Position numbers and translations under genes: made by a program. Source: a bacterium (GTDB lineage Archaea > Thermoproteota > Nitrososphaeria > Nitrososphaerales > Gagatemarchaeaceae). Taken from it: a stretch of DNA of 64,000 nucleotides. Below the pieces are notes generated by a model. The model had not been told where the DNA came from. It worked only from the letters and a program-made list of their open reading frames with translations, and searched no databases. Position 1 is the first letter of the stretch. Every line of letters starts with the position of its first letter. The DNA is taken from NCBI GenBank assembly GCA_027310575.1, contig DAIDAO010000017.1:1-64000 (forward strand). The letters run 5' to 3'. Of this stretch, positions 30,708-56,715 are shown in pieces.

Positions 30708-31678
30708 TGGCAACCACGTCGCGCTTCAAGACACTGAAGGACATGCCCGTCGAAGACTACCTGACGCCCGGGAACACGATGTGCGCGGGGTGCGGGGGCA
30801 TCCTCGCCGTCAGGATATTCCACAAGGTCCTTGGGCCCAACGTCGCATGGATCAACGCCGCAGGGTGCATGACGATCACCATGTCTTACCCCCTCAGCCC
30901 AATAAAGTCCAACTGGCTCTACACAGCCTTCGCGAGCGCGCCCGCAGGCGCCCAGGGGGTCAGGGACGCCCTCGACTTCCTCATCGCGAAGGGGAGGCTG
31001 CCGGCCTCTGAGGACATGAAGGTCGTCGTGGTAACGGGGGACGGGGCCGCGTACGACATAGGCTTCCAGGCAACCGCAGGGGCCATAGACAGGAACCTCG
31101 ACTTCTACTACCTCTGCTACGACAACGAAGCTTACGGGAACACCGGCTTCCAGATGTCGACCTCCACCCCCTTCGGCGCGTCCACGAAGACCACGCCTGC
31201 CACCGAAGCCTTCCCGCTGGGGAACACCGGCAGGAAGAAGGACCTCTTCGAGGTCTGGAGGATACAGAAGGCGCCTTATGTCGCGACCCTCTCCAACTCG
31301 CACGGGGTCGACTTCCTGAGGAAGGTGGAGAAGGGGGGGACGATCAAGGGGCCGAAGCTATACATCGACTTCGCTGCATGCCCGACCGGCTGGGGGTTCG
31401 ACCCCAAGGACTCGGTGGAGGTGGAGAAGCTGGTCGTCCAGACCGGGATCTGGCCGCTCAAGGAGTCGGTCAACGGGGTCGTGCGGCACACGTTCGTCCC
31501 CAGGTCTCTCGTACCTGTGAAGGAGTACCTGAAGACGCAGGAAAGGTTCAGGCACCTCTTCGAGCCGGCGGAGAAGAGCGAGGCCGTCTCGATCATCCAG
31601 AGCCAGGTGAACGAATACTGGAGGAAGGCCGCGGCGGCAGAGGACCTGGACGTAAGGCTCCCTGAGGGAGCCCGCTAG
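30707..31678 (+). CDS. 2-oxoacid:ferredoxin oxidoreductase beta subunit (TPP-binding)
   Basis: GNTMCAGCGGILAVRIFHKVLG, GDGAAYDIGFQ, YDNEAYGNTGFQ. Confidence 0.94.
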   Translation: MATTSRFKTLKDMPVEDYLTPGNTMCAGCGGILAVRIFHKVLGPNVAWINAAGCMTITMSYPLSPIKSNWLYTAFASAPAGAQGVRDALDFLIAKGRLPASEDMKVVVVTGDGAAYDIGFQATAGAIDRNLDFYYLCYDNEAYGNTGFQMSTSTPFGASTKTTPATEAFPLGNTGRKKDLFEVWRIQKAPYVATLSNSHGVDFLRKVEKGGTIKGPKLYIDFAACPTGWGFDPKDSVEVEKLVVQTGIWPLKESVNGVVRHTFVPRSLVPVKEYLKTQERFRHLFEPAEKSEAVSIIQSQVNEYWRKAAAAEDLDVRLPEGAR

Positions 31679-31763: not shown

Positions 31764-33002
31764 ATGGCGGGCCCGGCTCACTCGGGGAGGGGGGCGACGT
31801 GGTTCCTCGCGTTGATGTTCCTGGGCTACTTCGCATTCACAGCCGACAGGACCGTGCTTTCAGCAATGCTGAAACCCCTCTCGGCCTCTCTCGGCTTCGA
31901 AAGGACAGCGACGTTCGGGATCTCGGAGACCGCATGGCTCGCGGCCGCCCAGTTCGTCGGCGTGCTGGCCCTCGTCCTGGCGTCGGGGCACCTTTCTGAC
32001 AGATACGGCCACAGGAGGGTGATACTCGTGGGGGTGGGTGTCTTCACGGCGTTCACCTGGCTGGTCGGGGTCGCGTCGGACTTTCAGCAGGCCTTCGCGT
32101 TCAGGCTCGTCAGCGGCCTCGGCGAGGGCCTCTTCTGGCCTGCGGCCATGTCGGCTGTGGCGAACTACTTCGGGAGGAGCAAGGGGCTTGCGCTTGGGAT
32201 CTTCTACGCAGGATTCGACCTCGGAGGGGCGGCAGGCAACGGCATCGGCTCGGTCGCCTATGCGCTGACTTCCGACTGGAGGACCGCGTTCTTCATAGCC
32301 CCGCTGGTCGGGCTCCCGGTCCTCGCGGGAATCTCCGTCTCAAGGGGCGCGTTCGCTGGGGCAGCCACGAGGGTCGGAGCCCTGTCCATAGGAAGGGACA
32401 GCGTCGCGCTCCTCAAGAACAGGAGGGTCGCAGCCATACTGGCGTTCGCGTTCCTCGCCACCTGGGCCTCGGTCTGGCAGGTCGCGTACCTCCCCTACTA
32501 CTATTCGGTGGTCCTCGGCGCCTCGGTCCCTGCGGCCGGTGCCATAGCAGCGGGTGTCCTGCTCTCCGGCATGGTCGGAAAGATAGCGCTGGGAAGGCTT
32601 TCCGACTCCGTGAGGAGGGACAGGCTCCTCCTGTTCCTTTCTGTACTCGTCGTGGCGTCCTACGCCCTGTTCTTCTCCACAAGGAGCTTCTTCATCGGGG
32701 TCGGCGTTGCGATGGCCCTCGGCTTCTTCAGCTCGGCCATGTTCCCTGTGATGCAGGCCCTGGCCTCGGATTCCGCTCGCGGGAGGACAGGCACAGTCCT
32801 CGGGCTGACCACTACCTTCCAGTCCACGGCCGCGGTGGTGGGGGTGCTGGTCCCAGGAGCCCTCTTCGCATTCGGGGACGTCCTGAGGGCGATCGCGCTC
32901 GGCGCCATGTTCCCGGCGGTACTGACGGCCCTCTCCGCGCTCACCCTCAGAGAGGTGAGGAGCCCGGGGCCCAAAAGTGAGAATGAACCCCATAGCTTAT
33001 AG
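31764..33002 (+). CDS. MFS transporter
   Basis: 12-TM-like, GHLSDRYGHRRVILVG. Confidence 0.88.
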   Translation: MAGPAHSGRGATWFLALMFLGYFAFTADRTVLSAMLKPLSASLGFERTATFGISETAWLAAAQFVGVLALVLASGHLSDRYGHRRVILVGVGVFTAFTWLVGVASDFQQAFAFRLVSGLGEGLFWPAAMSAVANYFGRSKGLALGIFYAGFDLGGAAGNGIGSVAYALTSDWRTAFFIAPLVGLPVLAGISVSRGAFAGAATRVGALSIGRDSVALLKNRRVAAILAFAFLATWASVWQVAYLPYYYSVVLGASVPAAGAIAAGVLLSGMVGKIALGRLSDSVRRDRLLLFLSVLVVASYALFFSTRSFFIGVGVAMALGFFSSAMFPVMQALASDSARGRTGTVLGLTTTFQSTAAVVGVLVPGALFAFGDVLRAIALGAMFPAVLTALSALTLREVRSPGPKSENEPHSL

Positions 33003-33025
33003 CGCGAAGCGGCGAATGAGGGGCG

Positions 33026-33277
33026 ATGTGCGTCACGAGGGCAGGCAGGGCGGTCGCGGTCTCCAACGGCAGGGCGAGGGTGGAGTTCTTCGACGGCAGG
33101 GCCCTTGACGGCGTTGACGTGACCCTGGTGAAAGCGAAGAAGGGGGAATTCGTCGAGGTCTTCGGGAACATGGCGCTGTCCGTGCTGAGCGCCTCCGAGG
33201 CGAGGGCGAGGAAGAAGGCGTGGGCCGAAGTGAGGCGGGGAGCGGCTCTGTCCGCCGCCGAGGCGCCCCGATCATGA
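33026..33277 (+). CDS. HypC/CooT-like metallochaperone
   Basis: Starts Met-Cys: MCVTRAGRAVAVSNGRARVEFFDGRALDGVDVTLVKAKKGEFVEVFGNMALSVLSASEA; TATA-like agcttatag about 30 nt upstream. Confidence 0.7.
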   Translation: MCVTRAGRAVAVSNGRARVEFFDGRALDGVDVTLVKAKKGEFVEVFGNMALSVLSASEARARKKAWAEVRRGAALSAAEAPRS

Positions 33278-34044
33278 GAGACAGAGGGGTCATCTTTCAT
33301 GCGAAGCACGCGTTCATGCCGAACTTCCTCGGATACTGCGGTCCCGACGAGAGGGGGAGGATAAGGCAGAGCCTCGAGGGGGGCGGGGCCGACGAAGCCC
33401 TTGTCCGGAGCCTACAGCGGTTCGAGGCAGCCTACCCGTTCCTGAAGCTGATAGCCAGGTCCGCGGGGAGGGAGGTCTTCGACTACGCGGTCCCGGAGGC
33501 GTACTGGATCGGCAACAGCCTCCTCACCAGGGTACCGGTCTCGGACTTCTACAAGTTCTACCACCACGAACTGCCAGGGAAGGACGCGCGGGGCGTCAGG
33601 CGCGCGTTCAGGTCGATCGACGGACACGCTCCACCGCACCACACTTTCTACGTGATGAGCACCTATGCGATGTCGGGCGCAGCCGACGGGCCAGGCCTGG
33701 ACAACGAGCGCGAAGACAAGGTCGGACGGCTGGTGGACAGCTGCAGGATCTCCTGGGGGAAGGTCAGGAAGGTGAAGAAGAGCGAGCTGCAGGTGGAGTA
33801 CAGGCCTGTGGTCGTAGCGGGGGGGAGGATGGAGCTGGCCAAGCCGAGGCTGAAGACGGTGAGTTACAACCCTGAAGTGAGGCCCTTCGACGCCGTGAAA
33901 GCAGGGGACGTCGTGTCGCTCCACTGGGACTACGCGTGCGACCTGCTCACGCCAAGACAGGTGAGGAACATAGCGAAGTACACCGACTGGGACGTCCTTC
34001 TCGTGAACGGGTTCCTCGCGAAGGCCGGAGAGAACCGGCGCTGA
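33274..34044 (+). CDS. Uncharacterised protein overlapping hypC-like gene (possibly DUF6390)
   Basis: 256-aa ORF, ATG overlaps stop of the HypC-like ORF. Family name recalled, unverified. Confidence 0.5.
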   Translation: MRDRGVIFHAKHAFMPNFLGYCGPDERGRIRQSLEGGGADEALVRSLQRFEAAYPFLKLIARSAGREVFDYAVPEAYWIGNSLLTRVPVSDFYKFYHHELPGKDARGVRRAFRSIDGHAPPHHTFYVMSTYAMSGAADGPGLDNEREDKVGRLVDSCRISWGKVRKVKKSELQVEYRPVVVAGGRMELAKPRLKTVSYNPEVRPFDAVKAGDVVSLHWDYACDLLTPRQVRNIAKYTDWDVLLVNGFLAKAGENRR

Positions 34045-34356
34045 CTAGCGCTGCAGGTCGGAGAGGAGTTCGATGCGCCTGATCCTCGCACGGTCGAGCG
34101 CCTCCAGCGACTTCAGCATCTTGGCGAGCTCGGCGGCGTTGCTTCTGGACTCCTCCTGAAGCTTCTGGTACGCGCGCCTCGCGGCTGCCTCCTTGGATCC
34201 GGCTGCCAGCCTGGCGTAGCTCTCGGCAAGATCCTCCTCTACTGCCAGCCACTGGACCAGGTTCTCTATCGAGGTCTCTGCGTAGCCGGTCTTCACCGAC
34301 TCCTCGACCTTCCTCGCGTCCCCCGTCGACGTCAGCTCCACTATGACTCTGCCCAT
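34045..34356 (-). CDS. Small helical protein, unknown (rubrerythrin-like?)
   Basis: MGRVIVELTSTGDARKVEESVKTGYAETSIENLVQWLAVEEDLAESYARLAAG... Confidence 0.5.
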   Translation of the reverse strand: MGRVIVELTSTGDARKVEESVKTGYAETSIENLVQWLAVEEDLAESYARLAAGSKEAAARRAYQKLQEESRSNAAELAKMLKSLEALDRARIRRIELLSDLQR

Positions 34357-34429
34357 CAGCTTCCCCTGTTTCTGTCCTGCGCGTCGTCTGTAATAAGAGC
34401 GACGCAGACGCGCGAGCACCGGGAGCCGG

Positions 34430-35893
34430 TCAGAGGACGGTCCCGAGTATGAGGAAGGGGAAGACGCCCGTCGCCAGACTCAGGCCTAGGAGGGAAGCCG
34501 AGGGGAGGAGGTCGCGGACGGTTCGCGCGTCCCTTTCGCCCTGCGCATCGCCGAAGACCACGGTGTTGACGATCCTGAAGTAGTAGCCGATCGACAGCAC
34601 GATGTTGAGGACGACGGCCGCGGCAAGGAAGTAGAAGAGCGCGCCTGACATCTGCCCAGCCACGAGCAAAGACTCGACCACGAGAACCTCGCTCCAGAAC
34701 ATGCCGAAGGGCGGGGCGCCCATCATCGCTAGGGAGCATGAGGCGTAGAGGAACCCCAGGAGCCTGTTGCCTCGGCCGGCCCCTCGAAGGCTTTCGAGCT
34801 GAGAGGCTTCGATGGAAGCGTTCTTCCTGCCGATCATCATGAAGAAGTTCGACTTCAGAATCCCATGGTTCCAGATCGTGAAGACCACTGCGACGAGGCC
34901 GACCACGTTGAGCGTCGCGAGCGCTGCCAGCATGTAGCCGGTCTGCGTGATTGAGCTGAATGACAGGATCCTCCTCAGGTTGCCCTGCAGGAGCGCGGAG
35001 AGGTTCCCTACCAGCATGGTGACAAGGGCCAGTGCGGCTAGGACGGCTTGGAGGTTAGTCGGGCCGAACTGGTCCGGAGGGATCATGGGTGCGACGCCGC
35101 CGCCCGGGACGAGGGGCTGGAGCACCTTGAACAGCGCGAACACCCCCACGCCAGTCACTGCGCCGGAGATGATGGAGACGGCCGGGAGCGACGACGCGGA
35201 GTACACGTCGGGGAGCCAGGTGTGTAGCGGGACGACCGCGGCCTCGACCCCCAGGCCGACCAGGAGGACGATCAAGCCCAGTTCGCCGAAGTTCGTGCCG
35301 AGTGCCGCGCCGATGGCGGAGAGCCGGATCGACCCTGCGGTGAAGTATACCGCAGCGATGCCGTACAGGGCGAGTAGGCTTCCCACCCCTGCCATCAGGA
35401 AGTACTTGAGGCCGGCCTCCATGGAGAGGGCGGCCCTGCCGTAGGTCACGAGTCCGAAGGCGGTGACCGTCATCCCCTCCCAGAACAGGAAGAGGGCGAG
35501 GAGGTCCCCGGCGGACACCACCCCGACGATGCTGCCCAGGAGAATCGAAAGGAGGGCGTAGAAGGGGCCCTGTCGGCCCGACTCGAAGTAGCGCAGGGAG
35601 TAGCCTATGACCGCAAGTCCGATGACGAGGACCGTGAAGGCTGTAAAGGCTGTGAACCTGTCCGCGACGTACAGCGTGGCGAAAGGCTCCTCGACTGGCT
35701 GCAGGGTGACTGCACCCCCCAGCGACCGGGACCAATCCGACGCGAGCACGACCAGGGACGTGGCGGCCGCCAGGCAGACGACCAGGCCGGCTCCGTACCT
35801 CCTGACGGCAGGGGACGCGCCTCCCCCGATGTCAACGAGCAGGGCAAGCATCCCTCCGGCGAACAGGACCTCCATGACCGTCGTGGGCCACAT
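34430..35893 (-). CDS. Group 4 hydrogenase/complex I antiporter-like membrane subunit (NuoN/M-like)
   Basis: LALFLFWEGMTVTAFGLVTY, AAVVPLHTWLPDVYSASSLPAVSIISGAVTGVG. Confidence 0.92.
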   Translation of the reverse strand: MWPTTVMEVLFAGGMLALLVDIGGGASPAVRRYGAGLVVCLAAATSLVVLASDWSRSLGGAVTLQPVEEPFATLYVADRFTAFTAFTVLVIGLAVIGYSLRYFESGRQGPFYALLSILLGSIVGVVSAGDLLALFLFWEGMTVTAFGLVTYGRAALSMEAGLKYFLMAGVGSLLALYGIAAVYFTAGSIRLSAIGAALGTNFGELGLIVLLVGLGVEAAVVPLHTWLPDVYSASSLPAVSIISGAVTGVGVFALFKVLQPLVPGGGVAPMIPPDQFGPTNLQAVLAALALVTMLVGNLSALLQGNLRRILSFSSITQTGYMLAALATLNVVGLVAVVFTIWNHGILKSNFFMMIGRKNASIEASQLESLRGAGRGNRLLGFLYASCSLAMMGAPPFGMFWSEVLVVESLLVAGQMSGALFYFLAAAVVLNIVLSIGYYFRIVNTVVFGDAQGERDARTVRDLLPSASLLGLSLATGVFPFLILGTVL

Positions 35894-35895
35894 GC

Positions 35896-37641
35896 TCAGA
35901 GCACCCCCAGAGCGAAGAGTGCGAACAGCGCAGCAGAGACGAGCAGGACCAGCCCCATGTTGAATTCGATGAGCCCGGTCTGGAGACGGGAGGCGGCCGC
36001 TGACATCGGCTTCAGGAGGCCGCTGTACAGAGCAGCGTACGCTCTGTCAAAGCCCAGCCCCTCGTGCAGAAGCCCCTGGCCAGTGCGCAGCACCCCGCTG
36101 GACCGGATGCCTGACACGGTCCTCTGGTAGTTCTGCAGGAAGGCGTAGTAGGCGACACCTGCGAAGGCTGCGAGGACGAGCAAGGATTCGGCCAGAGTCT
36201 GCGCTCCCGGAATCCAGTCGGTCGACGACAGCAGGGGCTGCGACTGCAGGATGACCCAGGCTGCCAGAACAGAGAGCACCAGGACCACGATCGGGACAAG
36301 CATCGCAGGGGGGGACTCAGGCGGGGACCCTTCTGCCGACGGCTTGCCGTGGAATACGCGGAGGAGCGCGCGGAAGCTGTACAAGGCTGTGAGCGCGAAC
36401 GCGGCCAGCAGAAGAGCAGTCTGGGGGGCCCCTGCGCCGGACGCGAAAGCCAGGATCGCGTCCTTGCTCCAGAAGCCGACGAGAGGCGGGAGCCCGCTCA
36501 TGGCGAGCATGGAGACGAGGAAGCCTACGTAGGTGTACTTCAGGGACCTTGCCAGCCCACCCATCCTGTCGATCTCCCTCGTGCCGAGCGCCGTTATGAC
36601 AGAGCCCGCCGCGAGGAAGGCGAGGGCCTTGAAGAGGCCCTGGCTTATCATCTGGTACGCCCCCGCGGCCAGGCTCCCGAGCCCGATCGCCGCGAACATG
36701 AGCCCCAGCTGGCTTATGGTGGAGTAGGCCAGGACCCTCTTGATGTCGTCTGCGGCCATCGCGCATGCCCCTCCCACAAGGGCGCTGAGCAGCCCCACGC
36801 CCAGGATGACAGTAGTGAGAGAGCCGGCTAGCTGGGGGAGCGTGATCACAGGGTACATGCGCAGCATCAGGTAGACCCCAGCGTTCACCATCGTAGCCGC
36901 GTGGATGAGCGCGGAGACGGTGGTAGGGCCCTCCATGGCGTCAGGGAGCCACACATGCAGTGGGACTTGGGCGGACTTTCCCATGGCGCCAATGAACATC
37001 AGCAGGCCGAGCGCGAATATTGTCCCTGCGCCCAGGGTCTGGATACCCCCTGGTCCGAGGATTGCGTCGAAGCTCGTCGTGCCAAAGACGGCCGCTATGA
37101 AGATGACCGCTATGAGGAGGGAGGAATCCCCAAGCCTCGTCACCACGAACGCCTTCATGCCGGCCTTCCTGGCGGCAGGCCTGTCGGTCCAGAACGCGAT
37201 GAGAAGGGCGGAGCAGACTCCGACGAGCTCCCAGAAGAAGTAGAACTGGATCAGGTTCCCGGACATCACCAGCCCCATCATGGAGCCCACGAAGAGCAGG
37301 ATGAGGGAGTAGTACCTCGTCTGGCCTGGCTCGTCCTTCATGTAGCCGAGCGAGTAGACCACGACGAGGAACGAGACGAAGGAGACGAACGCCGAGACAA
37401 GGACGGAGAGCTGGTCCACCTCGACCTGCAGGGTCACGCTCAGAGACGGGAACCAGAGGGTGAGCCCCTCCGTCCCCCCTCTGGCGAAAGTGGCAGCGCC
37501 GTAGAGCGCGGCCGCCATCCCCGCGCCGGAGGCTGCCACGGCGAACCACCCCCGCAGGCGGCCGGAGATCCGCGAGACGACAGGCACGAACGGAACGCCC
37601 AGCAGCGGGATCGCCCAAGAAAGCCAGGCCCAGTAGATCAC
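35896..37641 (-). CDS. NuoL-like antiporter subunit
   Basis: FYFFWELVGVCSALLIAFW, GKSAQVPLHVWLPDAMEGPTTVSALIHAATMVNAGVYLMLR. Confidence 0.95.
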   Translation of the reverse strand: MIYWAWLSWAIPLLGVPFVPVVSRISGRLRGWFAVAASGAGMAAALYGAATFARGGTEGLTLWFPSLSVTLQVEVDQLSVLVSAFVSFVSFLVVVYSLGYMKDEPGQTRYYSLILLFVGSMMGLVMSGNLIQFYFFWELVGVCSALLIAFWTDRPAARKAGMKAFVVTRLGDSSLLIAVIFIAAVFGTTSFDAILGPGGIQTLGAGTIFALGLLMFIGAMGKSAQVPLHVWLPDAMEGPTTVSALIHAATMVNAGVYLMLRMYPVITLPQLAGSLTTVILGVGLLSALVGGACAMAADDIKRVLAYSTISQLGLMFAAIGLGSLAAGAYQMISQGLFKALAFLAAGSVITALGTREIDRMGGLARSLKYTYVGFLVSMLAMSGLPPLVGFWSKDAILAFASGAGAPQTALLLAAFALTALYSFRALLRVFHGKPSAEGSPPESPPAMLVPIVVLVLSVLAAWVILQSQPLLSSTDWIPGAQTLAESLLVLAAFAGVAYYAFLQNYQRTVSGIRSSGVLRTGQGLLHEGLGFDRAYAALYSGLLKPMSAAASRLQTGLIEFNMGLVLLVSAALFALFALGVL

Positions 37642-37952
37642 TGCCTAAGCCTCCTGATCTCGTCGGGGTTGAGGGTGTGGTACTTCCTGTAGACGACGAC
37701 CACGATCGCGAGGCCGACCGCCTCCACAGACGCCCCCACGAGCACCGAGAGTATCACGAAGGCGTCGGAGAGGAGCCTGGAGCCGAAGCCCATGCCCGAC
37801 GAGAACAGCGCAAGGTTGGCCCCGAAGACCGCGACCTGGAAAGACATGACCGTCTTGAGCAGGTTCTTCGAGAATCCGACGGAGCCGGCGCCCACGAAGA
37901 CGAGGGCCGTCCCTGTGGCGAGGAGGATGGCCTGGTCAGCTGCCATGGTCAT
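37638..37952 (-). CDS. NuoK-like subunit
   Basis: About 104 aa, 3 TM, SASVEAVGLAIVVVVYR-like NuoK end. Confidence 0.9.
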   Translation of the reverse strand: MTMAADQAILLATGTALVFVGAGSVGFSKNLLKTVMSFQVAVFGANLALFSSGMGFGSRLLSDAFVILSVLVGASVEAVGLAIVVVVYRKYHTLNPDEIRRLRQ

Positions 37953-38421
37953 CTCCTCCGAGCAGGCTCACTATCGTGACCATGGCGCCGGCGAAGACCA
38001 CAATCAGGATGAGGAGGTCCCAAGGGCGCACAGACCAGAGGAAGATCAGGACGTTCACCGAGGAGTCCGCGCCCACGTACCCCCCCGCCTGGCCGGGGAA
38101 GAGCACGAGGAGAGAGACTGCGCCCACGACCCCGGCCAACGGGATCGCTGCCGTGGCCAACCTCCGGGGGCCGAAGCCGAGCTCTGACTCGCCGGTTATC
38201 AGCACCACAGAGAGGAGGAGTACGGAGATCGCGCCTGCGAAGGTGATCATGGTCAGCAGGCCGAGGAGGGCATCGCCGTAGGCCGTGAAAGCGACGCCGA
38301 GGATGATCGACGTGTAGAAGAGGGCAATCAGCGAGTTGGAGACTTTGCTCGAGAGGAGCGCGGCCGCGACGCTCGCGAGCAGCGCGGCCGACAGCAGCAG
38401 CGCGACGTACTCACTTTGCAT
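37936..38421 (-). CDS. NuoJ-like subunit
   Basis: 161 aa, 5 TM; position J between I and K; LGVAFTAYGDALLGLLTMITFAGAISVLLL. Confidence 0.9.
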   Translation of the reverse strand: MQSEYVALLLSAALLASVAAALLSSKVSNSLIALFYTSIILGVAFTAYGDALLGLLTMITFAGAISVLLLSVVLITGESELGFGPRRLATAAIPLAGVVGAVSLLVLFPGQAGGYVGADSSVNVLIFLWSVRPWDLLILIVVFAGAMVTIVSLLGGDDHGS

Positions 38422-38815
38422 ATCTCAGCGCCTTGTCCATGGTCAGCGACTTCTTGTCGAAGACCGCCAGCTCGAAGTCGTGCGAAAGGGTCAGGGCGCC
38501 GAACCTGCAGTCGTCGACGCACTGCCCGCACGAGATGCAGGTGTAGAGGTCGAAGGTCGGCCTCTTGATCTCGACTTCGCGTGACCCCACGGTCTTCTTC
38601 CCCACCGGGACCATCGTGATTACGCCAGCAGGGCAGACGACCTCGCAGACGCTGCACCCCGTGCACTTCACAGGGTCGACGTCCAGCTTGCCCCTGAACC
38701 TCTCTGTGACGACCTTGCGGCCGAACGGGTACTGCTCGGTGACCGGGCGCTCGATCGCAGTCCTGAACATCTCCCCAAGCGCACCGCCGACCTTCTTCCT
38801 GGATCCCTGCGTCAC
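38411..38815 (-). CDS. NuoI/HycF-like 2x[4Fe-4S] subunit
   Basis: CTGCSVCEVVCP and CISCGQCVDDC. Confidence 0.94.
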   Translation of the reverse strand: MTQGSRKKVGGALGEMFRTAIERPVTEQYPFGRKVVTERFRGKLDVDPVKCTGCSVCEVVCPAGVITMVPVGKKTVGSREVEIKRPTFDLYTCISCGQCVDDCRFGALTLSHDFELAVFDKKSLTMDKALRYAK

Positions 38816-39780
38816 CTGACAAGCACCACCAGTGCGAGCTGGGCCATGCTCAGCGGGGTCAGAACCGTCCAGAACAGCTTGGCCGCCTGGTCGATCCTCA
38901 CCCTGGCGAGCGCGGTCCTGATCGCGAAGATGAGGAACCCCACGGCGAAGAGTTTGACCAAGAAGTAGCCCGCGAACACCAGCGCCTGCAGAGTGGGGTC
39001 GGCGGTCAGGGTCGGGCCCCCGGCTCCCCCGAGGAACAGGCTCACGGCCAGCGCCGAGAGGAAGACGTAGCTGAGGTTCTTCGTGAGCTTGACGTAGGCG
39101 AGCGCGTTCCCAGAGAACTCGGTCATCCAGCCGCCGACGATCTCCGTAGTCGCGCTCGGGATGTCGAAGGGGGGTTTGTCGAGCTCCGCGAGCGTGGCTA
39201 TCACGAAGACCGCGAAGGCCACAGGGGCGAAGGCGATGTACCAGACCGAGCTCTGCGCAGCAGCCACCCCCTGGATGGAGAGGCTCCCCGCCAGAATCGC
39301 CGGGGTCACCATCGAGATGATGAGCGGGACCTCGTAGCTCGTGTACTGTACGACCAGCCTCCCGACCGCTATGGTCGAGTATCTGCCAGCAGACGCGTAG
39401 CCGAGCATCGAAGCCATCAGCGTGGAGAAGGATAGGACGAAGAGCATGAAGAGGAGATCAAGGGGACTGCCGAGTATCGACTGATAGCCGGTCACAGGGA
39501 TGAAGGCGATCCCGATGGCAGGTGCGGCGAAGTAGAGGGCGGGCCCCCACCTGAGGACGAACGTGTCAGCCTCTGCGGGGACGATCTCCTCTTTCGCGGC
39601 CAGCTTGAAGAAGTCGGCGACGGGCTGGAAGATGCCGAACGGTCCCGCCACCACGGGGCCGCGCCTCCCCTGCATGCGCGCGGCGGTCTTGCGCTCTAGC
39701 CACTCGAAGAGGAAGGCCAGCCACACGAAGAAGGTCAGCCCAGGGAAGAGGAGGAGCTCGGCCAGCAGCTGGGGGGTCAG
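38812..39780 (-). CDS. NuoH-like membrane subunit
   Basis: FEWLERKTAARMQGRRGPVVAGPFGIFQPVADFFKL, DKPPFDIPSATTEIVGG; start uncertain (CTG at 39780 overlapping the upstream stop, or in-frame ATG near 39843). Confidence 0.93.
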   Translation of the reverse strand: MTPQLLAELLLFPGLTFFVWLAFLFEWLERKTAARMQGRRGPVVAGPFGIFQPVADFFKLAAKEEIVPAEADTFVLRWGPALYFAAPAIGIAFIPVTGYQSILGSPLDLLFMLFVLSFSTLMASMLGYASAGRYSTIAVGRLVVQYTSYEVPLIISMVTPAILAGSLSIQGVAAAQSSVWYIAFAPVAFAVFVIATLAELDKPPFDIPSATTEIVGGWMTEFSGNALAYVKLTKNLSYVFLSALAVSLFLGGAGGPTLTADPTLQALVFAGYFLVKLFAVGFLIFAIRTALARVRIDQAAKLFWTVLTPLSMAQLALVVLVR

Positions 39781-41015
39781 CTGCGCCGCCCCCTGTAGTA
39801 TTCTATCCCGTAGCTGCGGAGCTCCTCCCCGCTCACCGACCATTCCTTCGCCCTGTCCACGTCGACGACCGCGACCCGGTCCATGCAGCCGAAGCACGGG
39901 TCCATCCCTGTCAGGACGACAGGGACGTCTGCGAGCGTGTGCCCCCTGAGCATCTCGGTGGCCGTGAGGAGGTTGGCCATGGTCGGGGTCCGGACCTTCA
40001 CCCTTTCGGGTGTGCTCCCCCCTCCGGACTTCACGAAGTAGAAGAGCTCGCCCCGTGGGGCTTCGACGTGGTAGGTCGACTCCCCGGCAGGGGCCACTCT
40101 CGGGAAGCTCGCCTTGAAGGGCCCCGCGGGCATCTTCTCGAGGGCCTCTTCGACCATCCTGCAGGAGTCGAGGACCTCATCGATCCTCAGGACGAGGAGG
40201 GACGCGATGTCTCCCCCGGTCGACGTCTGCACGTTGGGTATCACCTCGTCGTACGCGGCGTAGGGGTCCTCTGCCCTCACGTCCCTCCCGATGCCGGTGC
40301 AGCGCAGGAGAGGGCCGACTGGGGAGAGCCGCCTGGCCGTGTCCTGCGAGATCCGACCCACCCCCTTCGTCCTCACGGAGAGGGTCTCCTCGCTCTGGAC
40401 CAGACCCCTGTAGTATTCTGCCCTCTTCCTGATGTATCCCAGCTCGGCTCGGACCTTCTGAGCTATCCCGTCCGGGAGGTCCTTCCTGACCCCGCCGAAC
40501 GCGGAGTAGGACTTGTGCACCCGGTTGCCCGTGATCTCCTCCTCAAGGTCGAGGACGTGCTCCCTGTCCTTCCAGATCCACATGAACAGGGTGTCGAAGC
40601 CGGCCCAGTGACCGACCAGACCCAGCCAGAGCAGGTGCGAGTGAATCCTTTCGAGCTCGGCGACGACCACCCTGATGTACTTGGCTCTGGCCGGGACCTC
40701 GAACGGGTAGAGCGACTCGACCCCCTCGGTGTAGGAGAGGCTGTGGTGGAAGCTGCAGATGCCGCAGATCCTCTCGAAGAGGTAGATGTTCTTAGTCCAC
40801 GTCCTTTCCTGGGCCGCCCGCTCGATCCCCCTGTGGACGTATCCTATCCGGGGTATCACCTGGACTATCTTCTCCCCTTCCAGTATCAGCTTGAAGTATT
40901 CGGGTTCCTTGAGCGAGGGGTGCACGGGCCCGAAGGGCATCATCCCTTCGGGGGAATACCGCATCAGCTCTGCTCCCGCTTCTGTCCTTCTGCTGTCCTG
41001 CGGCTGGTCACTCAA
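39777..41015 (-). CDS. [NiFe] hydrogenase large subunit, group 4 (NuoD-like)
   Basis: Both metal motifs intact: L1 ERICGICSFHHS and L2 DPCFGCMDR, with HycE-like C-terminal tail VAVVDVDRAKEWSVSGEELRSYGIEYYRGRRS. Confidence 0.96.
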   Translation of the reverse strand: MSDQPQDSRRTEAGAELMRYSPEGMMPFGPVHPSLKEPEYFKLILEGEKIVQVIPRIGYVHRGIERAAQERTWTKNIYLFERICGICSFHHSLSYTEGVESLYPFEVPARAKYIRVVVAELERIHSHLLWLGLVGHWAGFDTLFMWIWKDREHVLDLEEEITGNRVHKSYSAFGGVRKDLPDGIAQKVRAELGYIRKRAEYYRGLVQSEETLSVRTKGVGRISQDTARRLSPVGPLLRCTGIGRDVRAEDPYAAYDEVIPNVQTSTGGDIASLLVLRIDEVLDSCRMVEEALEKMPAGPFKASFPRVAPAGESTYHVEAPRGELFYFVKSGGGSTPERVKVRTPTMANLLTATEMLRGHTLADVPVVLTGMDPCFGCMDRVAVVDVDRAKEWSVSGEELRSYGIEYYRGRRS

Positions 41016-41475
41016 GCTCCATGATCCTCCTGATCTTCTCCGGGTCGGCCTCGCGGCGCAGGGGCGGCGGCGCGTCGGGCGGGTAGCTGTCGGGCAGGAG
41101 GAGCTTCTTCCCAGCGTACGGGTTCCCCTCGAAGCCTACCCCGAGCAGGTCCTGAATCTCCGCCTCGTAGAGGACGGCCGCGGGGAGCACGCCTGATATG
41201 GACTGCAGGCGCGGAGCCGCCTTCGGGACCGTGGTCCTCACCTGCACGAACCTCCTTTCACGCCAGAAGTGGTAGAGCAGTGCGATGTCGTCTCCGAGGT
41301 CGACCCCGGTGATTGTGCTGAGGTGATAGAGCCCGGGGAGGGAGGAGACCCCCCTGCAGGCTTCCACGACCTTGGACGGAGGCACGGAGATCACGGTCGA
41401 CTTGCGCTCCTCCGTGACGGTCGCCCCGAGGGCAGCTCCCAGAGCTGCGAGTTCTTCACTGGACAACCGGCTCAA
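41008..41475 (-). CDS. NuoC-like subunit
   Basis: YHLSTITGVDLGDDIALLYHFW... EAEIQDLLGVGFEGNPYAGKKLLLPDSYP. Confidence 0.9.
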   Translation of the reverse strand: MSRLSSEELAALGAALGATVTEERKSTVISVPPSKVVEACRGVSSLPGLYHLSTITGVDLGDDIALLYHFWRERRFVQVRTTVPKAAPRLQSISGVLPAAVLYEAEIQDLLGVGFEGNPYAGKKLLLPDSYPPDAPPPLRREADPEKIRRIMELE

Positions 41476-41923
41476 GTCCTGGCACCGGGTCTGGGTGCCC
41501 GCCGAGAACGAGCTTCACAATGCCGTAGATCAACGCCTCCGGCCTGGGAGGGCAGCCAGGGATGTAGAGGTCGACCGGGATGACCGAGTCGACCCCCTTC
41601 CCCACGTTGTAGCAGTCCTTCATCACCCCTCCCCCGAGCGCGCACGCGCCTATGGCCACGACGTGCCTCGGCTCCGGCATCTGATCGTAGACCGTCTTCA
41701 GGCGGTCGCGCATGAGGGGGTTGGTGGTCCCTGTCACCAGCAGCACGTCGGCGTGCCGGGGGCTCGGGACAAGCTCGACGCCGAGCCTTTCCGCGTCGTA
41801 CCTGGGTGTCAGCGCAGCCAAGATCTCGATGTCGCACCCGTTGCACGATGCCGCGTTCACGTGAAAGACCCAGATCGACCTCTTCCTCGCCCACCGGGTC
41901 AGCCCGCTCCTAAAACCTCCCAC
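41456..41923 (-). CDS. [NiFe] hydrogenase small subunit (NuoB-like)
   Basis: ASCNGCDIEILAAL, VAIGACALGGG, IPGCPPRPEALIYGI. Confidence 0.95.
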   Translation of the reverse strand: MGGFRSGLTRWARKRSIWVFHVNAASCNGCDIEILAALTPRYDAERLGVELVPSPRHADVLLVTGTTNPLMRDRLKTVYDQMPEPRHVVAIGACALGGGVMKDCYNVGKGVDSVIPVDLYIPGCPPRPEALIYGIVKLVLGGHPDPVPGLEPVVQ

Positions 41924-42254
41924 CCCCTGCGAAGAGGAACCAGGCGACCGAGAGGGTCACCACGCTCCCTCCGCCGACGAGGAACAGAACCGGGTAGTAA
42001 GGCCCCGGCGCCTCGAAGGAGCCTGCGAGAATCAGGGCGAAGGTCTCCACTACGAGGAAGAGCGCGGCGAAGATGAACAGGCTAGACTGATACACCCCCC
42101 TGTGCGGGACCGAGTTCTCACCCCCCGCGAATGGTTCGTACTTCACGCCTCTCCCCCTCGAGCGCCTCCCAAGCCCTCCCACGAGGAGATACGCGGCGAT
42201 GTCGACGACCACGATCACGAGAGGCCCCAGAATGACGTCCTCGATGTCTGTCAA
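41910..42254 (-). CDS. NuoA-like subunit
   Basis: 114 aa from TTG at 42254: RRSRGRGVKYEPFAGGENSVPHRGVYQSSLFIFAALFLVVETFALILAGSF; 3 hydrophobic segments and a PFxxGxxSV loop as in NuoA. Confidence 0.88.
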   Translation of the reverse strand: MTDIEDVILGPLVIVVVDIAAYLLVGGLGRRSRGRGVKYEPFAGGENSVPHRGVYQSSLFIFAALFLVVETFALILAGSFEAPGPYYPVLFLVGGGSVVTLSVAWFLFAGGGRF

Positions 42255-42772
42255 GTCCTCCCCCCTATCGCTCGGGCGACCGCTTCGACGATGGTCCCGG
42301 CCGACTCGCTCACCGTCCTGGTGAGGCCCTCGCCGACTTCGAGCGACTCCGGCTGCACCCCCAAGATGTAGACCTCGGTCCCGGCGGCTGCGAGACCCGG
42401 AACGAGCCTGAGCGGGATGTTGTGCGTCGCGAAGAACCCGTACTTGGTCTCCGATAGTCTGCTGAACACGATGCTCCCGGGCTCCTTGGCGGCCTCGACC
42501 GCGTCGAAGATTAGCAGCCTCCTCCCCTCCGCCGCGAGCTTCGACAGAAGCCGCTCGGGCATCAGTGACGCCCGGTGGATCTTCACCCACGGAGCGGGTG
42601 CAGACCCCAGGTCCGATCGGAGCGCCCTGACCACCACCAGACCGACGGCGTCGTCGGTCCTGATGCTGTTCCCCACGCCGATGAGGTGCACAGGGCCCCT
42701 GCCGTCGGAGAGCGCTTCTTCCAGCCCCTCCCGCCAGCCGGCCCGATCCGCACGCTCCGGCGTTCCGCTCAT
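42251..42772 (-). CDS. hycI: HycI-type hydrogenase maturation endopeptidase
   Basis: HLIGVGNSIRTDDAVGLVVVRAL... LLIFDAVEAAKEPGSI; ATG at 42772 inside longer ORF. Confidence 0.92.
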   Translation of the reverse strand: MSGTPERADRAGWREGLEEALSDGRGPVHLIGVGNSIRTDDAVGLVVVRALRSDLGSAPAPWVKIHRASLMPERLLSKLAAEGRRLLIFDAVEAAKEPGSIVFSRLSETKYGFFATHNIPLRLVPGLAAAGTEVYILGVQPESLEVGEGLTRTVSESAGTIVEAVARAIGGRT

Positions 42773-43119
42773 GACATCTTCACGAGCCTGACCCCCAGTC
42801 CCGTTAGGATGCTCAGGGAGGAGCCGCACTTCGGACAGGCGAAGGCCGGGTCTATCCTGTGTTCGCGCCTCCTTACCTCGAGGCGGCCCTCGAAACCGCA
42901 CTTCGGACAGCGCACCGAGCCCCTGGAGAACCTGACGGACAGCCTGGATCCCTCGGCCTTGGTGCCTTTCGACAGGACCGCGTATGCGGTGGTCAGAGAC
43001 TCCCTCGTCAGGCCGAGCATCTCCCCCACTTCTACGGTGACCGTGTCTGGTCTGCCGCCTCTGCCAATCTCCTCCAAGACCGTCTGAAGGATCCTGTCGG
43101 CGTAGACGTACTCGTGCAA
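42769..43119 (-). CDS. hypA: HypA nickel-insertion protein
   Basis: TTG at 43119 restores the MHE N-terminus (MHEYVYADRILQTVLEEI); zinc motifs CPKCGF and CPKCGS. Confidence 0.92.
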   Translation of the reverse strand: MHEYVYADRILQTVLEEIGRGGRPDTVTVEVGEMLGLTRESLTTAYAVLSKGTKAEGSRLSVRFSRGSVRCPKCGFEGRLEVRRREHRIDPAFACPKCGSSLSILTGLGVRLVKMS

Positions 43120-43142
43120 CGGCTCCACGGACAGGCAGGGCG

Positions 43143-43263: not shown

Positions 43264-43725
43264 CTACGACCCGAGACGGGTCAGGAACTCCTTCTTCGCC
43301 GCCACCACAGTCTCAATCGCCCCTTCCCACCCCTTCCTTTCTGTCCGTGACTTCATGACGATCTCCCTCATGGCAGCGTACACGTCGTCGAGCGTCGCCG
43401 CCCCGATCCCTGCCCTGTCGACCGCGCCCACGAAGTGCTCGTTTTCGATGTCAAGGGTGTAGCCGTTCTTCGCGAGGAAGGCGAGCCCTGCCACCAGGGC
43501 TGTCCGCTTGTTCCCGGCGTGGAAGTACTGGCCGCTTGCCACCTTGAACACCAGGAGGGCGGCCTTCTCGGGAATCGCGTCGTCGAGTTCCTGGTTGTCC
43601 GCCCGTTGCTCCACCTCCGTGACCAGCTCCGAGAGCTTCTTGCCGTCGGCTGAAGAGTACTCGTGGGTCTCCCCTGTCAGTGCCACGACCGCCCTGTTCA
43701 CGTCCAACAGCGTCTCGAGGTCCAT
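43264..43725 (-). CDS. Fic/Doc-family protein with altered catalytic motif
   Basis: GQYFHAGNKRTALVAGLAFLAKNGYTL; Doc-like GNKRT with Gln at the usual His position. Confidence 0.75.
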   Translation of the reverse strand: MDLETLLDVNRAVVALTGETHEYSSADGKKLSELVTEVEQRADNQELDDAIPEKAALLVFKVASGQYFHAGNKRTALVAGLAFLAKNGYTLDIENEHFVGAVDRAGIGAATLDDVYAAMREIVMKSRTERKGWEGAIETVVAAKKEFLTRLGS

Positions 43726-43797
43726 ATGATGGACGGTCTTCCGCGCCACGGGCGCCCGCGCCAATGCCTGCAATATAACCGATTGAGAGCGGGAGAT

Positions 43798-45560: not shown

Positions 45561-46499
45561 TTGAAGCTCGTAGTCGCTCTTGGGGGCAATGCGCTGCTCC
45601 GGCCTGAACAGAGAGGGACCTACGAAGAGGTCGTGGAGAACGTCAGGGAGGCCTGCAGGCAGGTCGGGAAGCTGGTATCCATGGGGCACCAGCTCGTGCT
45701 GACGCACGGAAACGGGCCCCAGGTCGGGAACATCGCGCTGCAGCAGGCTTCCACCTCGGAGGTCCCCGAGAACCCGCTGCACGTGCTCGGTGCGATGACG
45801 CAGGGGGAGATCGGATACCTTGTACAGCGGGAGCTCGGGAACTTCCTCCGGCACGCCGGCATAGCCAAGCCGGTGGTCTCGCTGGTGACGCAGGTGCAGG
45901 TCTCAGAGGACGACCCCTCGTTCTCCAGTCCGACGAAGCCCATAGGCCCGTTCTACAACGAGTCGGACTCGAAGAAGGTCCATGACGAGAAAGGCTTCGT
46001 GATGAAGAAGGTGGGGAGGGGCGCGAGGCCGTACAGGAGGGTAGTCCCCTCTCCGGAGCCGGTGCGGATCGTCGAGTCGGAGGCAGTGGCGGCGATGATC
46101 CGATCGGGCGCGATCGTGGTGGCAGGGGGAGGGGGCGGGATCCCGGTCGTCGCGAAGGACGGCAAATACGAAGGGATCGACGCCGTGATAGACAAGGACC
46201 TGGCGGCGGAGAAGCTGGCCGAGGGGGTGGGGGCCGAAGTCCTGCTGATCCTCACGAACGTCGACTCAGTGAAGGTCGGCTACGGGACGCCTCAGGAGAA
46301 GAGCCTGGACAGGATCACCGTCGCGAAGGCGAAGAGCCTCCTTGCGCAGGGGCAGTTCCCGCTTGGGAGCATGGGGCCCAAGGTGACGGCCTGCGTCCGC
46401 TTCGTCGAGCACGGAGGCAGGATGGGGGTCGTGGCCTCGCTCGAAAAGGCGATCGACGCGCTGAACGGTGCGACTGGGACTAGGGTCGTGCCAGGCTGA
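45561..46499 (+). CDS. arcC: Carbamate kinase
   Basis: LVVALGGNALL, LVLTHGNGPQVGN, VVAGGGGGIPV, GSMGPKVTAC; TTG start with TATA cctttaag about 27 nt upstream. Confidence 0.96.
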   Translation: MKLVVALGGNALLRPEQRGTYEEVVENVREACRQVGKLVSMGHQLVLTHGNGPQVGNIALQQASTSEVPENPLHVLGAMTQGEIGYLVQRELGNFLRHAGIAKPVVSLVTQVQVSEDDPSFSSPTKPIGPFYNESDSKKVHDEKGFVMKKVGRGARPYRRVVPSPEPVRIVESEAVAAMIRSGAIVVAGGGGGIPVVAKDGKYEGIDAVIDKDLAAEKLAEGVGAEVLLILTNVDSVKVGYGTPQEKSLDRITVAKAKSLLAQGQFPLGSMGPKVTACVRFVEHGGRMGVVASLEKAIDALNGATGTRVVPG

Positions 46500-46543
46500 T
46501 TAGGAGCAGAGACACGACACCATACGTTGATACGGGACAAGGC

Positions 46544-46555
46544 TTTTATAATTTT
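46544..46555 (+). promoter_or_regulatory. TATA box upstream of molybdenum hydroxylase operon
   Basis: ttttataatttt centred about 26 nt upstream of TTG start at 46574. Confidence 0.65.
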
Positions 46556-46573
46556 GAGGGGTTCTGACGTACC

Positions 46574-48973
46574 TTGACAGCCGACGCATTCGTAGGCAAA
46601 GCTGTCCCCCCGGAGGACACGGTGCGGAAGGTGACGGGGACGGCGCTCTACACCTACGACTGGGAGGTCCCCGGGACGCTATACGCGAAGCTCGTGACGA
46701 GCACGGTCCCTCACGCAAAGATCGTCAGGATCAGCCTCGAGAGCGCAAAGGCGGTTCCTGGCGTCGTAGCGGTGCTCACCGGAAAGGACATGCCCTTCAG
46801 GGTCGGAATGTACGCAGGGGACAGGGACCTGCTGGCTGTCGAGAAGGTGAGGTGGGCGGGGCACCCGGTCGCCCTGGTCGTGGCCGAGACACTCGAAGCT
46901 GGCGAGAGAGCGTCTGAGCTCGTTGACGTGGAGTACGAAACGCTCCCGGCGGTATTCGATCCGGTCAAGGCGATGGAGGCGGACGCACCTCTGCTGCACG
47001 AGAGGATGGAAGAGTACAAGCACGCGCCCGTATTCTACCCGGTCCCCGGGACCAACATAGCCAACAGGTTCAGGCTCGTCCACGGCGACGTCGAAAAGGG
47101 GTTCGGGCAGGCCGACGAGCTGGTGGAGGAGGAGTTCCGGATATCTCACGTCAGCCACGCCTACTTGGAGACCCAGAACGTCGTCGCCCAGGCGTACAGG
47201 GACGGGACCTACGAGATCTGGACGAGCGCGCAGTCCCCGTTCGTGGTGAGGCAGATCATCTCCGAGTCCCTGAACATACCGTACAACAAGATCACGATCA
47301 GAGTGCCCTTCGTCGGGGGCGGGTTCGGAGGGAAGGCGGGCCTGCAATGGGAAGCGCTGGCCGCGATGGCGTCCAAGGCCGTAGGTTACAGGCCTGTGAA
47401 GCTGGTCCTGTCGCGCAAGGAGAACTTCTCCTCGGGCGCGTCCAGGGAGGGGGTCGTCGCGAACGTGAAGGCGGGGTTCACGAAAGACGGGAAGTGCGTC
47501 GCCTACAAGGTCAGGTTCGTGCTGGACGCAGGCGCTTACGCAGACTACACGGTGAACGTCTCCAGGGCGATGGGATACTCGGCCGAGGGGGTGTACGAGG
47601 TCCCGAACGTCCAGTGCGAGTCCCTCGCGGTCTACACCAACAAGGTCCCGACGACAGCGATGCGGGGATTCGGATACTCGGAGAGCAACTGGGTCCTCGA
47701 GCAGGTCTTCGAGAGGGCGGCCAAGAAGCTTGGAATGGATTCGGCGAAGATCAGGCGGGTGAACCTCCTCAGGCCGGGCGAGTCCCATACGGCCACAGGC
47801 GAAAAGGTCAGGGAGGACGTGGGGGACCCGAGGAAGGTCCTGCAGACTGTTCTGGAGGGGATAGACTGGGACGGCAAGGTCGAGCGTCCGTCCGAGCCAT
47901 GGAAGGTGAGGGCGAGGGGGTTTGCCCTCTGCGTGAAGGGACCGTCGCAGCCTCCGAACGCTTCGTCGTCAGCGATCCTGAAGTTCAACGAGGACTCGAC
48001 CATAGACCTGGTCCTCGGCACGGGCAACTTCGGCCAGGGGACGGCCACCGCGATCTCGCAGATGGTCGCGGACCAGTTCGGTGTCGCGGTCGAGAAGGTC
48101 AGGGTGGACCCGGTCAGGGACACCGGCAAGTCTGCCTACACCTGGCAGACCGTCGGGAGCAGGGGTCTCTTTACTGACGGGGTCGCGACGTTGCGCGCGT
48201 GCGAAGACGCGAAGGGCCAGATACTCGACCTCGCTTCCCAGGTGATGAGGCTCCCGAAGTCGGAGCTGGAGGTGGCGGAGGGGGCTGTGAAGGCGAAGGG
48301 GCGCCCCTGGCTCTCCATCCCGCTCCGCGAACTCGTCTTCGGCTACGTCTACCCGAACGGCAACACGGTGGGAGGGCCGGTCATCGGGAGGGGCCAGTAC
48401 ACTTCCAGCCTCAACACGTACCTCGACCCTCAGACGGGCCAGGGGGTCCCGACCATATTCCACACGTTCGGCGGGACGGCCGTAGACATAGAGCTTGACC
48501 TGGTCACGGGAGCGATAGAGGTGAAGAAGGCGGTCCAGGTCTTCGACGTCGGCAAGGCGATCAACCCGCTGCTCCTGAAGATGCAGCTCGACGGGGGTTT
48601 CATAATGGGGATGAGCATCGCGCTCTTCGAGAAGATAAAGTTCGACGAGCAGGGTTGGGTCATGAACCCGAACTTCACGAGCTACTACCTCGCCAGGATG
48701 AAGGACGTGCCGAAGGACTTCGTCGCCAGGTACGTGGAGACCCCCCAGTTCGACGGCCCCTTGGGCGCGAGGGGGATCGGCGAGCTGAGCATGATCTCGG
48801 TTGCGTCTGCCATATCCAACGCTGTCTTCAGGAGCACAGGCGTGAAGCTCAACAACCTCCCCATGAGCCCTGAGGAGGTGTGGGCCGCCATCTCTTCGCA
48901 GAAGCCTGAGCTGCTGGCCAAGGCGATGGAGAGTTACGGCAGGGTGGAGACCGCGGTGAAGGCGAGACAATGA
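46574..48973 (+). CDS. Xanthine-dehydrogenase-family molybdenum-binding subunit
   Basis: PFVGGGFGGKAG, TTAMRGFGYSE, GTGNFGQGTATAISQM, GARGIGE. Confidence 0.94.
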   Translation: MTADAFVGKAVPPEDTVRKVTGTALYTYDWEVPGTLYAKLVTSTVPHAKIVRISLESAKAVPGVVAVLTGKDMPFRVGMYAGDRDLLAVEKVRWAGHPVALVVAETLEAGERASELVDVEYETLPAVFDPVKAMEADAPLLHERMEEYKHAPVFYPVPGTNIANRFRLVHGDVEKGFGQADELVEEEFRISHVSHAYLETQNVVAQAYRDGTYEIWTSAQSPFVVRQIISESLNIPYNKITIRVPFVGGGFGGKAGLQWEALAAMASKAVGYRPVKLVLSRKENFSSGASREGVVANVKAGFTKDGKCVAYKVRFVLDAGAYADYTVNVSRAMGYSAEGVYEVPNVQCESLAVYTNKVPTTAMRGFGYSESNWVLEQVFERAAKKLGMDSAKIRRVNLLRPGESHTATGEKVREDVGDPRKVLQTVLEGIDWDGKVERPSEPWKVRARGFALCVKGPSQPPNASSSAILKFNEDSTIDLVLGTGNFGQGTATAISQMVADQFGVAVEKVRVDPVRDTGKSAYTWQTVGSRGLFTDGVATLRACEDAKGQILDLASQVMRLPKSELEVAEGAVKAKGRPWLSIPLRELVFGYVYPNGNTVGGPVIGRGQYTSSLNTYLDPQTGQGVPTIFHTFGGTAVDIELDLVTGAIEVKKAVQVFDVGKAINPLLLKMQLDGGFIMGMSIALFEKIKFDEQGWVMNPNFTSYYLARMKDVPKDFVARYVETPQFDGPLGARGIGELSMISVASAISNAVFRSTGVKLNNLPMSPEEVWAAISSQKPELLAKAMESYGRVETAVKARQ

Positions 48974-50327: not shown

Positions 50328-50382
50328 ACGCCCCGCGCAGCTCGGGACAACGATTAAAACGGCCTGACCTGCCGACGGTCAA

Positions 50383-51123: not shown

Positions 51124-51137
51124 GAGACCGTCTGCCC

Positions 51138-51314
51138 TCAGAGCAGCCTGTCGAGGGCGTCCGCGAGCTTCTTCTCTAGCTTGGGAGCCTGTGAAAGGTC
51201 CAGCTGGGCGCACCTGACCTTCTGGCTTTCCAGGGCCTCCCTGAATATGTCGAGCCCGACGTTGAGGACCACCAGGTCAGACGACAGCAGGCTCTCCGAT
51301 CTGCCCTTAGGCAA
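51138..51314 (-). CDS. 58-aa stand-alone FdrA-tail-like protein
   Basis: Below the ORF-track cutoff: LPKGRSESLLSSDLVVLNVGLDIFREALESQKVRCAQLDLSQAPKLEKKLADALDRLL*; TTG start overlaps the fdrA-like stop. Confidence 0.65.
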   Translation of the reverse strand: MPKGRSESLLSSDLVVLNVGLDIFREALESQKVRCAQLDLSQAPKLEKKLADALDRLL

Positions 51315-56709: not shown

Positions 56710-56715
56710 CGCTGG

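Follow-up and report, generated by a model that had tools for sequence, protein, structure and literature searches.

A probable Hfo-like [NiFe] hydrogenase with two antiporter subunits in archaea in which HypD, HypE and HypF were not found

Hfo is an 11-subunit Fpo-like hydrogenase of Bathyarchaeia (Bathy-6), placed in subgroup 4g and presented as the first hydrogenase to share both subunits and gene order with Fpo and Nuo (Loh et al. 2021, PMC7886697). It was argued to form a closer link between the energy-converting hydrogenases and complex I, and the same study noted 'Hfo-like' complexes in Methanomethylicus and Pyrodictium; a role for Hfo in coupling ferredoxin and H2 to the membrane potential has been proposed (PMC7886697). 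For the active site of such enzymes, the literature holds HypA–F to be required for every [NiFe] cofactor (PMC12134894). We analysed a 64,000-nucleotide stretch of archaeal DNA (contig DAIDAO010000017.1; hereafter the window) from a metagenome-assembled genome (MAG) of 1.58 Mb and 97% completeness. Its minus strand carries, at 34430-43128, a hydrogenase operon in the order hypA-hycI-A-B-C-D-H-I-J-K-L-N, whose open reading frames (ORFs) overlap or nearly touch at their ends. We read the encoded complex as a membrane-bound, ferredoxin-dependent, Hfo-like (NuoA-bearing, group 4) [NiFe] hydrogenase with two antiporters, matured without HypD, HypE and HypF, and put the probability of this reading at roughly 0.78. 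The NuoA-bearing class itself is already known; the unexpected part is the absence of HypD, HypE and HypF.

The sequence itself shows the complement of genes, the motifs that bind the metals and that the M-type subunit has been lost. Subunit D retains both motifs of the bimetal site, L1 (RICGICSFHH) and L2 (DPCFGCMDR), with all four metal cysteines and the PRG motif in place; they lie within FERICGICSFHH and GMDPCFGCMDR, and after the latter comes a tail of 32 residues that can be aligned to HycE. D thereby has the L1/L2 CxxC motifs and, with a dedicated endopeptidase gene (hycI) in the operon, the C-terminal tail of a group 4 large subunit. L1, L2 and the HycE-type tail are intact in all members, and the two motifs are conserved in all relatives. 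The top PDB matches of D are HycE of formate hydrogenlyase (E 2.5e-80) and Pyrococcus furiosus Mbh (9.9e-76), both ahead of complex I. Subunit B reads ASCNGCDIE, with a single cysteine where complex I has a CC pair. Furthermore, D, B, H and I all match one set of NuoA-bearing hydrogenase loci rather than Fpo/Nuo. These observations bear out the initial annotation, made from the sequence alone, which had described a minus-strand gene train in canonical nuo order, a D subunit with both motifs and a HycE-like cleavable tail, and a hydrogenase-type B without the tandem CC: every ORF it named was found at its position and in its order. Of the span it gave (34430-43119) the start holds and the end does not, since hypA runs to 43128. 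It overlooked hypC and DUF6390, as well as the absence of HypD, HypE and HypF, all of which emerged in the follow-up.

Subunit families were assigned by Pfam/NCBIfam profile searches, in which all subunits except A matched a family (J below the gathering threshold). To the left of the operon, the functional unit also takes in orf124 (34045-34419) and the plus-strand genes MFS-hypC-DUF6390 (31764-34044). The features are as follows, with the supporting matches in brackets.

42769..43128, minus: hypA, nickel metallochaperone (PF01155 9.9e-18; TIGR00100 2.1e-13)
42251..42772, minus: hycI-type maturation endopeptidase (PF01750 4.7e-8; TIGR00072 2.9e-24, over cut-off)
41910..42251, minus: NuoA-like subunit A, 113 aa, three transmembrane (TM) helices (profile, structure model, synteny in 71/80 loci)
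41456..41923, minus: subunit B, hydrogenase small-subunit type, CxGC (PF01058 3.3e-32)
41008..41475, minus: subunit C, 30 kDa (PF00329 3e-19)
39777..41015, minus: subunit D, [NiFe] large subunit (Complex1_49kDa 2.9e-67; NiFeSe_Hases 2.9e-11)
38812..39840, minus: subunit H, start uncertain, overlaps D (PF00146, NADHdh, 1.4e-81)
38411..38815, minus: subunit I, 2x[4Fe-4S] ferredoxin-like, Fer4 (PF12838 1.2e-11; TIGR01971 1e-23)
37936..38421, minus: subunit J, undivided (PF00499 3.1e-4, below gathering; family conserved in related loci)
37638..37952, minus: subunit K (PF00420 2.8e-15)
35896..37641, minus: subunit L, NuoL clade, short C-terminal lateral-helix region (PF00361, Proton_antipo_M, 6e-72; tree SH-aLRT 100)
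34430..35893, minus: second antiporter subunit, divergent, N-like (PF00361, Proton_antipo_M, 1.7e-45)
34045..34419, minus: orf124, small protein conserved beside N in loci of this kind, start uncertain (no known family)
33280..34044, plus: DUF6390, N-terminal helical part with LGYCG motif and C-terminal HypC-like domain (PF19927 6.3e-51)
33026..33277, plus: hypC-like chaperone (TIGR00074 1.4e-7, below cut-off)
31764..33002, plus: MFS transporter, conserved beside hypC-DUF6390 (locus comparison)

Compared with Hfo, the window complex has A and J, the Nuo-type gene order and the NiFe motifs of D in common, and both lack NuoEFG and FpoFO; NuoE, NuoF, NuoG and NuoM are not present in the operon. 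The two differ in that the window complex has 10 subunits and no M-type antiporter (Hfo has 11: A, B, C, D, H, I, J, K, L, M and N), an undivided J, hypA-hycI upstream and a very divergent N, in an organism without HypD, HypE and HypF. The same 10 subunits, two antiporters, short NuoL C-terminus and NuoK E36Q exchange recur in Anaerolineae (Leptolinea, Longilinea and Levilinea; J-K-L-N-A-B-C-D-H-I-hycI), whose gene order, however, is split into JKLN and then ABCDHI, whose genomes have HypD, and whose D and antiporters fall in separate clades. Mbh (4d) and Hyc/Hyf (4a) share the NiFe large subunit with L1 and L2, and Hyc also has the same cleavable tail, but the E. coli Hyc and Hyf operons annotate neither a NuoA nor a NuoJ subunit, and Mbh carries an Mrp-type module (PMC7886697). 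Complex I and the F420H2 dehydrogenase (Nuo, Fpo) are alike in membrane-arm subunits and gene order, whereas their NuoD/FpoD lacks the four metal cysteines, NuoM is present and the electron-input modules are different. With its 10 subunits, two antiporters and a lateral-helix region of NuoL that is cut short, the window complex is a variant of the Hfo-like kind; relatives of its lineage are labelled Thaumarchaeota/Nitrososphaerota. Because at least eight other loci have the same genes, it is not a chance arrangement.

That a group 4 hydrogenase has NuoA is not unique to this locus, nor is it a new finding. Among 80 surveyed named loci containing relatives of D (from Bathyarchaeia, Thermoplasmatota, Asgard-type archaea, Anaerolineae with cultured members included, Omnitrophota and Bacillota), the A gene adjoins B in 71, and the idea that NuoA is peculiar to the window locus was dropped. 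The initial annotation had suggested a hydrogenase with almost the full membrane arm (A, H, J, K, L and one M/N), as an intermediate or chimera between group 4 hydrogenases and complex I; that these subunits are retained stands, and the idea itself was largely anticipated by Hfo (PMC7886697), a subgroup already known to contain NuoA. In a tree of D, built with references other than Ech and Coo, NuoD/FpoD branches within the cluster of NuoA-bearing hydrogenases, apart from Hyc/Hyf and Mbh, at a fork with a support (SH-aLRT) of 86 that is drawn open; the topology agrees with Loh et al. 2021. The window D forms its own clade with a support of 100 within this cluster, which also holds Bathyarchaeota sequences, and apparently lies near Hfo-type hydrogenases. 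Since NuoD/FpoD sits inside the cluster on an open fork, the label 'intermediate' would seem to fit the whole NuoA-bearing class rather than the window locus. A side finding from the same genus (G008, L122 7124-14341) is a Hyf-like group 4 cluster whose D lacks the L1 motif, i.e. an Ehr-like complex.

Searched alone, the window A gave no match to PF00507 (Oxidored_q4) at the gathering score. Its best PDB match is nevertheless E. coli NuoA (3rko_A, E 0.022), and a family of A proteins from seven loci aligned with the NuoA profile around the K-x-x-P-F...G loop and TM2 (hhalign E 3e-4, at a probability of just 39%). Of the syntenic A proteins of related hydrogenase operons, 34 of 42 match Oxidored_q4, the best at 2.4e-9, and an AlphaFold2 model of the window A shows three TM helices with the topology and loop of NuoA. 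A Foldseek search with this model was set aside as uninformative, as its top match, complex I chain A, was not significant (E 3.7). Taken together, profile, PDB match, topology and synteny establish, at the level of sequence and model comparison, that A is a genuine but divergent NuoA homologue; the resemblance to NuoA proposed in the initial annotation is upheld.

In the membrane arm, the antiporter tree places the window L firmly with NuoL (SH-aLRT 100), while the second antiporter is long-branched and N-like. An M-type antiporter was absent from all seven window-type loci tested by tree, so that the earlier count of two antiporter-like subunits, against three in complex I, proved right and the missing one is of the NuoM type. 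The NuoL region after K399 comprises 188 residues in the window, 195 in the two-antiporter complexes of Anaerolineae and 195-196 in the other two-antiporter lineages, compared with 214 in E. coli and 220-303 in three-antiporter archaea. A shorter region would be expected of a lateral helix that has one antiporter fewer to span. The window L keeps E144, D178, K229, H254 and K399. In contrast, K carries Q in place of NuoK E36 and V in place of E72, the second antiporter has Glu at NuoN-type K217 and K395, and NuoH E216, E218 and E241 are changed in H. Because L retains these residues while positions in K, N and H are changed, coupling through L appears plausible, and altered elsewhere. With two antiporters and exchanges of charged residues in three other subunits (K, N and H), the complex amounts to a natural experiment on how electron transfer and pumping are coupled in complex I.

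The absence of Hyp proteins rests on profile searches of genomes for HypD, HypE and HypF. HypD was missing in the first five same-genus carriers tested and was not found in any of the 46 genomes of the family, 15 of them of high quality. It was likewise missing in all nine carriers of the window-type hydrogenase found (two families), in the group-1 hydrogenase relatives described below, and in all 15 DUF6390-bearing archaeal genomes found, comprising nine of the window family, five of family f9 and G064 (locus L035). The same-order carriers G048 and G056 do have HypD. HypE and HypF, searched in five carriers, reached only scores typical of paralogues (no more than 101 and 42 bits, with cut-offs of 251.6 and 466), compared with 388-400 and 851-887 bits in HypD-bearing relatives. 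A HypE-like PurM protein of one carrier (G000) was rejected as HypE: it has no C-terminal PRIC motif, and similar scores occur in the non-carrier G005. Thus, of the HypABCDEF set that makes NiFe(CN)2CO, HypA and a HypC-like protein are present, while HypD, HypE and HypF were not found. Literature searches on HypD-less hydrogenases and on the hydrogenase of this lineage returned nothing direct.

The HypD-less carriers share the opposite-strand block MFS-hypC-DUF6390, and orf124 closes their group 4 operon. The same block lies near a group-1 type hydrogenase with a small subunit bearing a twin-arginine translocation (TAT) signal in three genomes (G036, G080 and G121). The block of the window (31764-34044, plus strand) and those of G036, G080, G121 and G110 (L163, L182, L178 and L180) are thus common to group 4 and group-1 loci. 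A gene for a B12-binding radical SAM protein lies near the group-1 type [NiFe] hydrogenase in two genomes of this family that lack HypD (L163 3-5601; L182 2768-6534 and 15418-17274). An ApbC/Mrp-type P-loop ATPase, named from inspection of its sequence, adjoins hypA in group-1 loci (L178 12180-12953, L180 7704-8498, L182 6728-7591) and is a possible HypB substitute. Two genomes that had appeared to carry DUF6390 without a hydrogenase were reassigned: G015 is a contig-edge carrier (K-L-N-orf124) and G036 has the group-1 type enzyme. The sister locus L033, whose D is 64% identical, has no block, although orf124 is kept beside its N gene; its genome has hypD-hypC-hypE-hypF, a cluster that may also serve another hydrogenase, of which a gene fragment lies beside it.

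DUF6390 also occurs directly after hypE-tatA or hypD on plasmids of Sulfobacillus acidophilus and Mycobacterium intracellulare. Because it sits among hyp genes in both bacteria, its link to hydrogenase maturation is a general one. Bacterial DUF6390 accompanies a full Hyp set and is therefore accessory there, and the notion that it evolved as a sole replacement in these archaea only was abandoned. No paper on DUF6390 was found in literature searches.

The C-terminal domain of DUF6390 resembles HypC. An hhalign comparison gave a probability of 94 and a score of 50, against a maximum of 18.4 in 60 column-shuffled controls, and the top PDB match in Foldseek was HypC (2z1c, E 0.024), with the HypC-like domain modelled at a predicted local distance difference test (pLDDT) value of about 85. 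Cys2 and His51 of HypC are iron ligands (PMC12134894). C20, C155 and H215 of DUF6390 are invariant in 16 archaeal and bacterial sequences; C155 and H215 align in register with HypC Cys2 and His51, so that the domain has both the HypC fold and its iron-ligand residues, whereas C20 lies in the invariant LGYCG motif of an N-terminal domain that the HypC/HupF family does not have. The small HypC-like partner keeps Cys2 and lacks the His51 motif. A single DUF6390 chain may therefore supply the Cys-Cys-His iron site for which HypC and Cys41 of HypD are combined elsewhere.

We propose that DUF6390 takes part in a HypDEF-independent route of Fe-ligand assembly and may stand in for hypD, hypE and hypF. 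That it acts as, or with, the iron-ligand scaffold alongside HypC, MFS and HypA is an addition to our explanation rather than a competitor, and we consider it an even bet. In its favour are the absence of HypD in the family and in every DUF6390-bearing archaeal genome, the paralogue-level HypE and HypF scores, the converse situation of L033 (no DUF6390, complete hyp cluster), the neighbourhoods in Sulfobacillus and Mycobacterium, and the HypC-like domain with its invariant residues. Against it stand the accessory setting in bacteria, the lack of an identified source for the CN or CO ligands, and the weakness of the structural comparison, in which the Foldseek E of 0.024 comes from a DUF6390 model with a mean pLDDT of 61 and 4 sequences in the alignment. 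More tentatively, and slightly short of even odds, we suggest that the archaeal order has replaced HypD, HypE and HypF, with DUF6390 and its HypC-like partner forming the iron-ligand scaffold for both group 4 and group-1 type enzymes. The HypD-less lineage gives DUF6390 a likely role, and two kinds of apparently intact [NiFe] hydrogenase without HypD (and, where tested, without HypE and HypF) turn the origin of the CN and CO ligands into a testable question.

The electron donor, direction, ion and coupling of the window complex we infer as follows. Reduced ferredoxin would serve as donor, for example from the 2-oxoacid:ferredoxin oxidoreductase 3 kb away; this POR-type enzyme (28597-31678) is a likely ferredoxin source. 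Subunits I and B would relay the electrons to D, at whose NiFe site protons would be reduced to H2, or the reverse. The H/A/J/K module would couple the reaction to ion movement through L and the N-like antiporter, which would replace the three antiporters of complex I. The metal site would be assembled without HypD, HypE and HypF, by the remaining set of HypA, the HypC-like protein, HycI and DUF6390. A separate quinone-type Fpo/Nuo complex, with an FpoD-type gene, is encoded elsewhere in the genome, and the window complex is consequently not the respiratory one. With this complex and a heme-copper oxidase, for which carriers have genes, the cell is probably able to use oxygen for respiration.

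Several points weigh against this picture. Given the heme-copper oxidases, the H2-evolving direction is not certain, and we know of no biochemistry on the window complex or on any 4g hydrogenase. The exchanges in NuoK (E36Q, E72V), in the NuoN-type subunit (K217E, K395E) and at the acidic positions of NuoH could mean that coupling is altered or partly lost. Moreover, the absence of HypD, HypE and HypF may mean that no Fe(CN)2CO site is made at all.

One alternative is that the metal site of the D subunits has no cyanide ligands, or that these proteins are no hydrogenases and the complex serves other ferredoxin-linked chemistry. The carriers tested lack HypE and HypF, whose genes serve CN- synthesis, as well as the HypD scaffold, and the HypE-like protein of G000 has no PRIC motif. 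Yet D still has the L1/L2 cysteines, the PRG motif and the cleavable tail, HypA and HycI are kept as well, and for a group-1 type hydrogenase of this family HypD is missing too, with the same block present. A Ser to Gly exchange just before L2 (GMDPC) was considered as a mark of altered CN binding and discarded: it also occurs in Bathyarchaeota and Anaerolineae lineages, among which several genomes have HypD, and hence does not point to a different set of ligands. We regard this alternative as unlikely.

Less likely still is that hypD, hypE and hypF reside on plasmids or other elements missing from all bins. All carriers are MAGs or drafts, and in Sulfobacillus the entire hydrogenase-hyp cluster lies on a plasmid. 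However, these genes would have to have been lost from each of fifteen genomes in two families (about 1e-14 for joint HypD absence through random gaps, from the listed completeness of 14 of the 15), the structural genes and hypA, hypC and hycI were binned on ordinary contigs, and HypD was recovered in seven other genomes of the order.

That the locus is a complex I or Fpo with a D made hydrogenase-like by convergence or by chimerism, the latter an option also raised in the initial annotation, is very improbable: the complex I gene order and the presence of NuoA, J, K and L would suit it, but D, B, H and I match the same hydrogenase loci, D lies in a clade with a support of 100, apparently beside Hfo-type hydrogenases, and the organism has its own Fpo/Nuo complex.

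Beyond the hydrogenase, a Fic/DOC-family protein (43264-43773) adjoins hypA and is conserved in several window-type loci (L113/L032, L034 and L114). The region 45561-55135 encodes a carbamate kinase-like protein, a molybdenum hydroxylase of the xanthine dehydrogenase type (L/M/S), the AllG and AllH oxamate carbamoyltransferase subunits and a CoA-ligase-like protein of the AllF/FdrA type; it is likely a cluster for purine or allantoin fermentation that yields ATP from carbamoyl phosphate. An ABC transporter follows at 55111-59954, with an ATPase, a BmpA/PnrA-type binding protein and two permease-like ORFs between them, and probably takes up nucleosides that feed the purine genes. A CoxG-family protein is encoded at 59995-60432, apart from the molybdenum hydroxylase genes.

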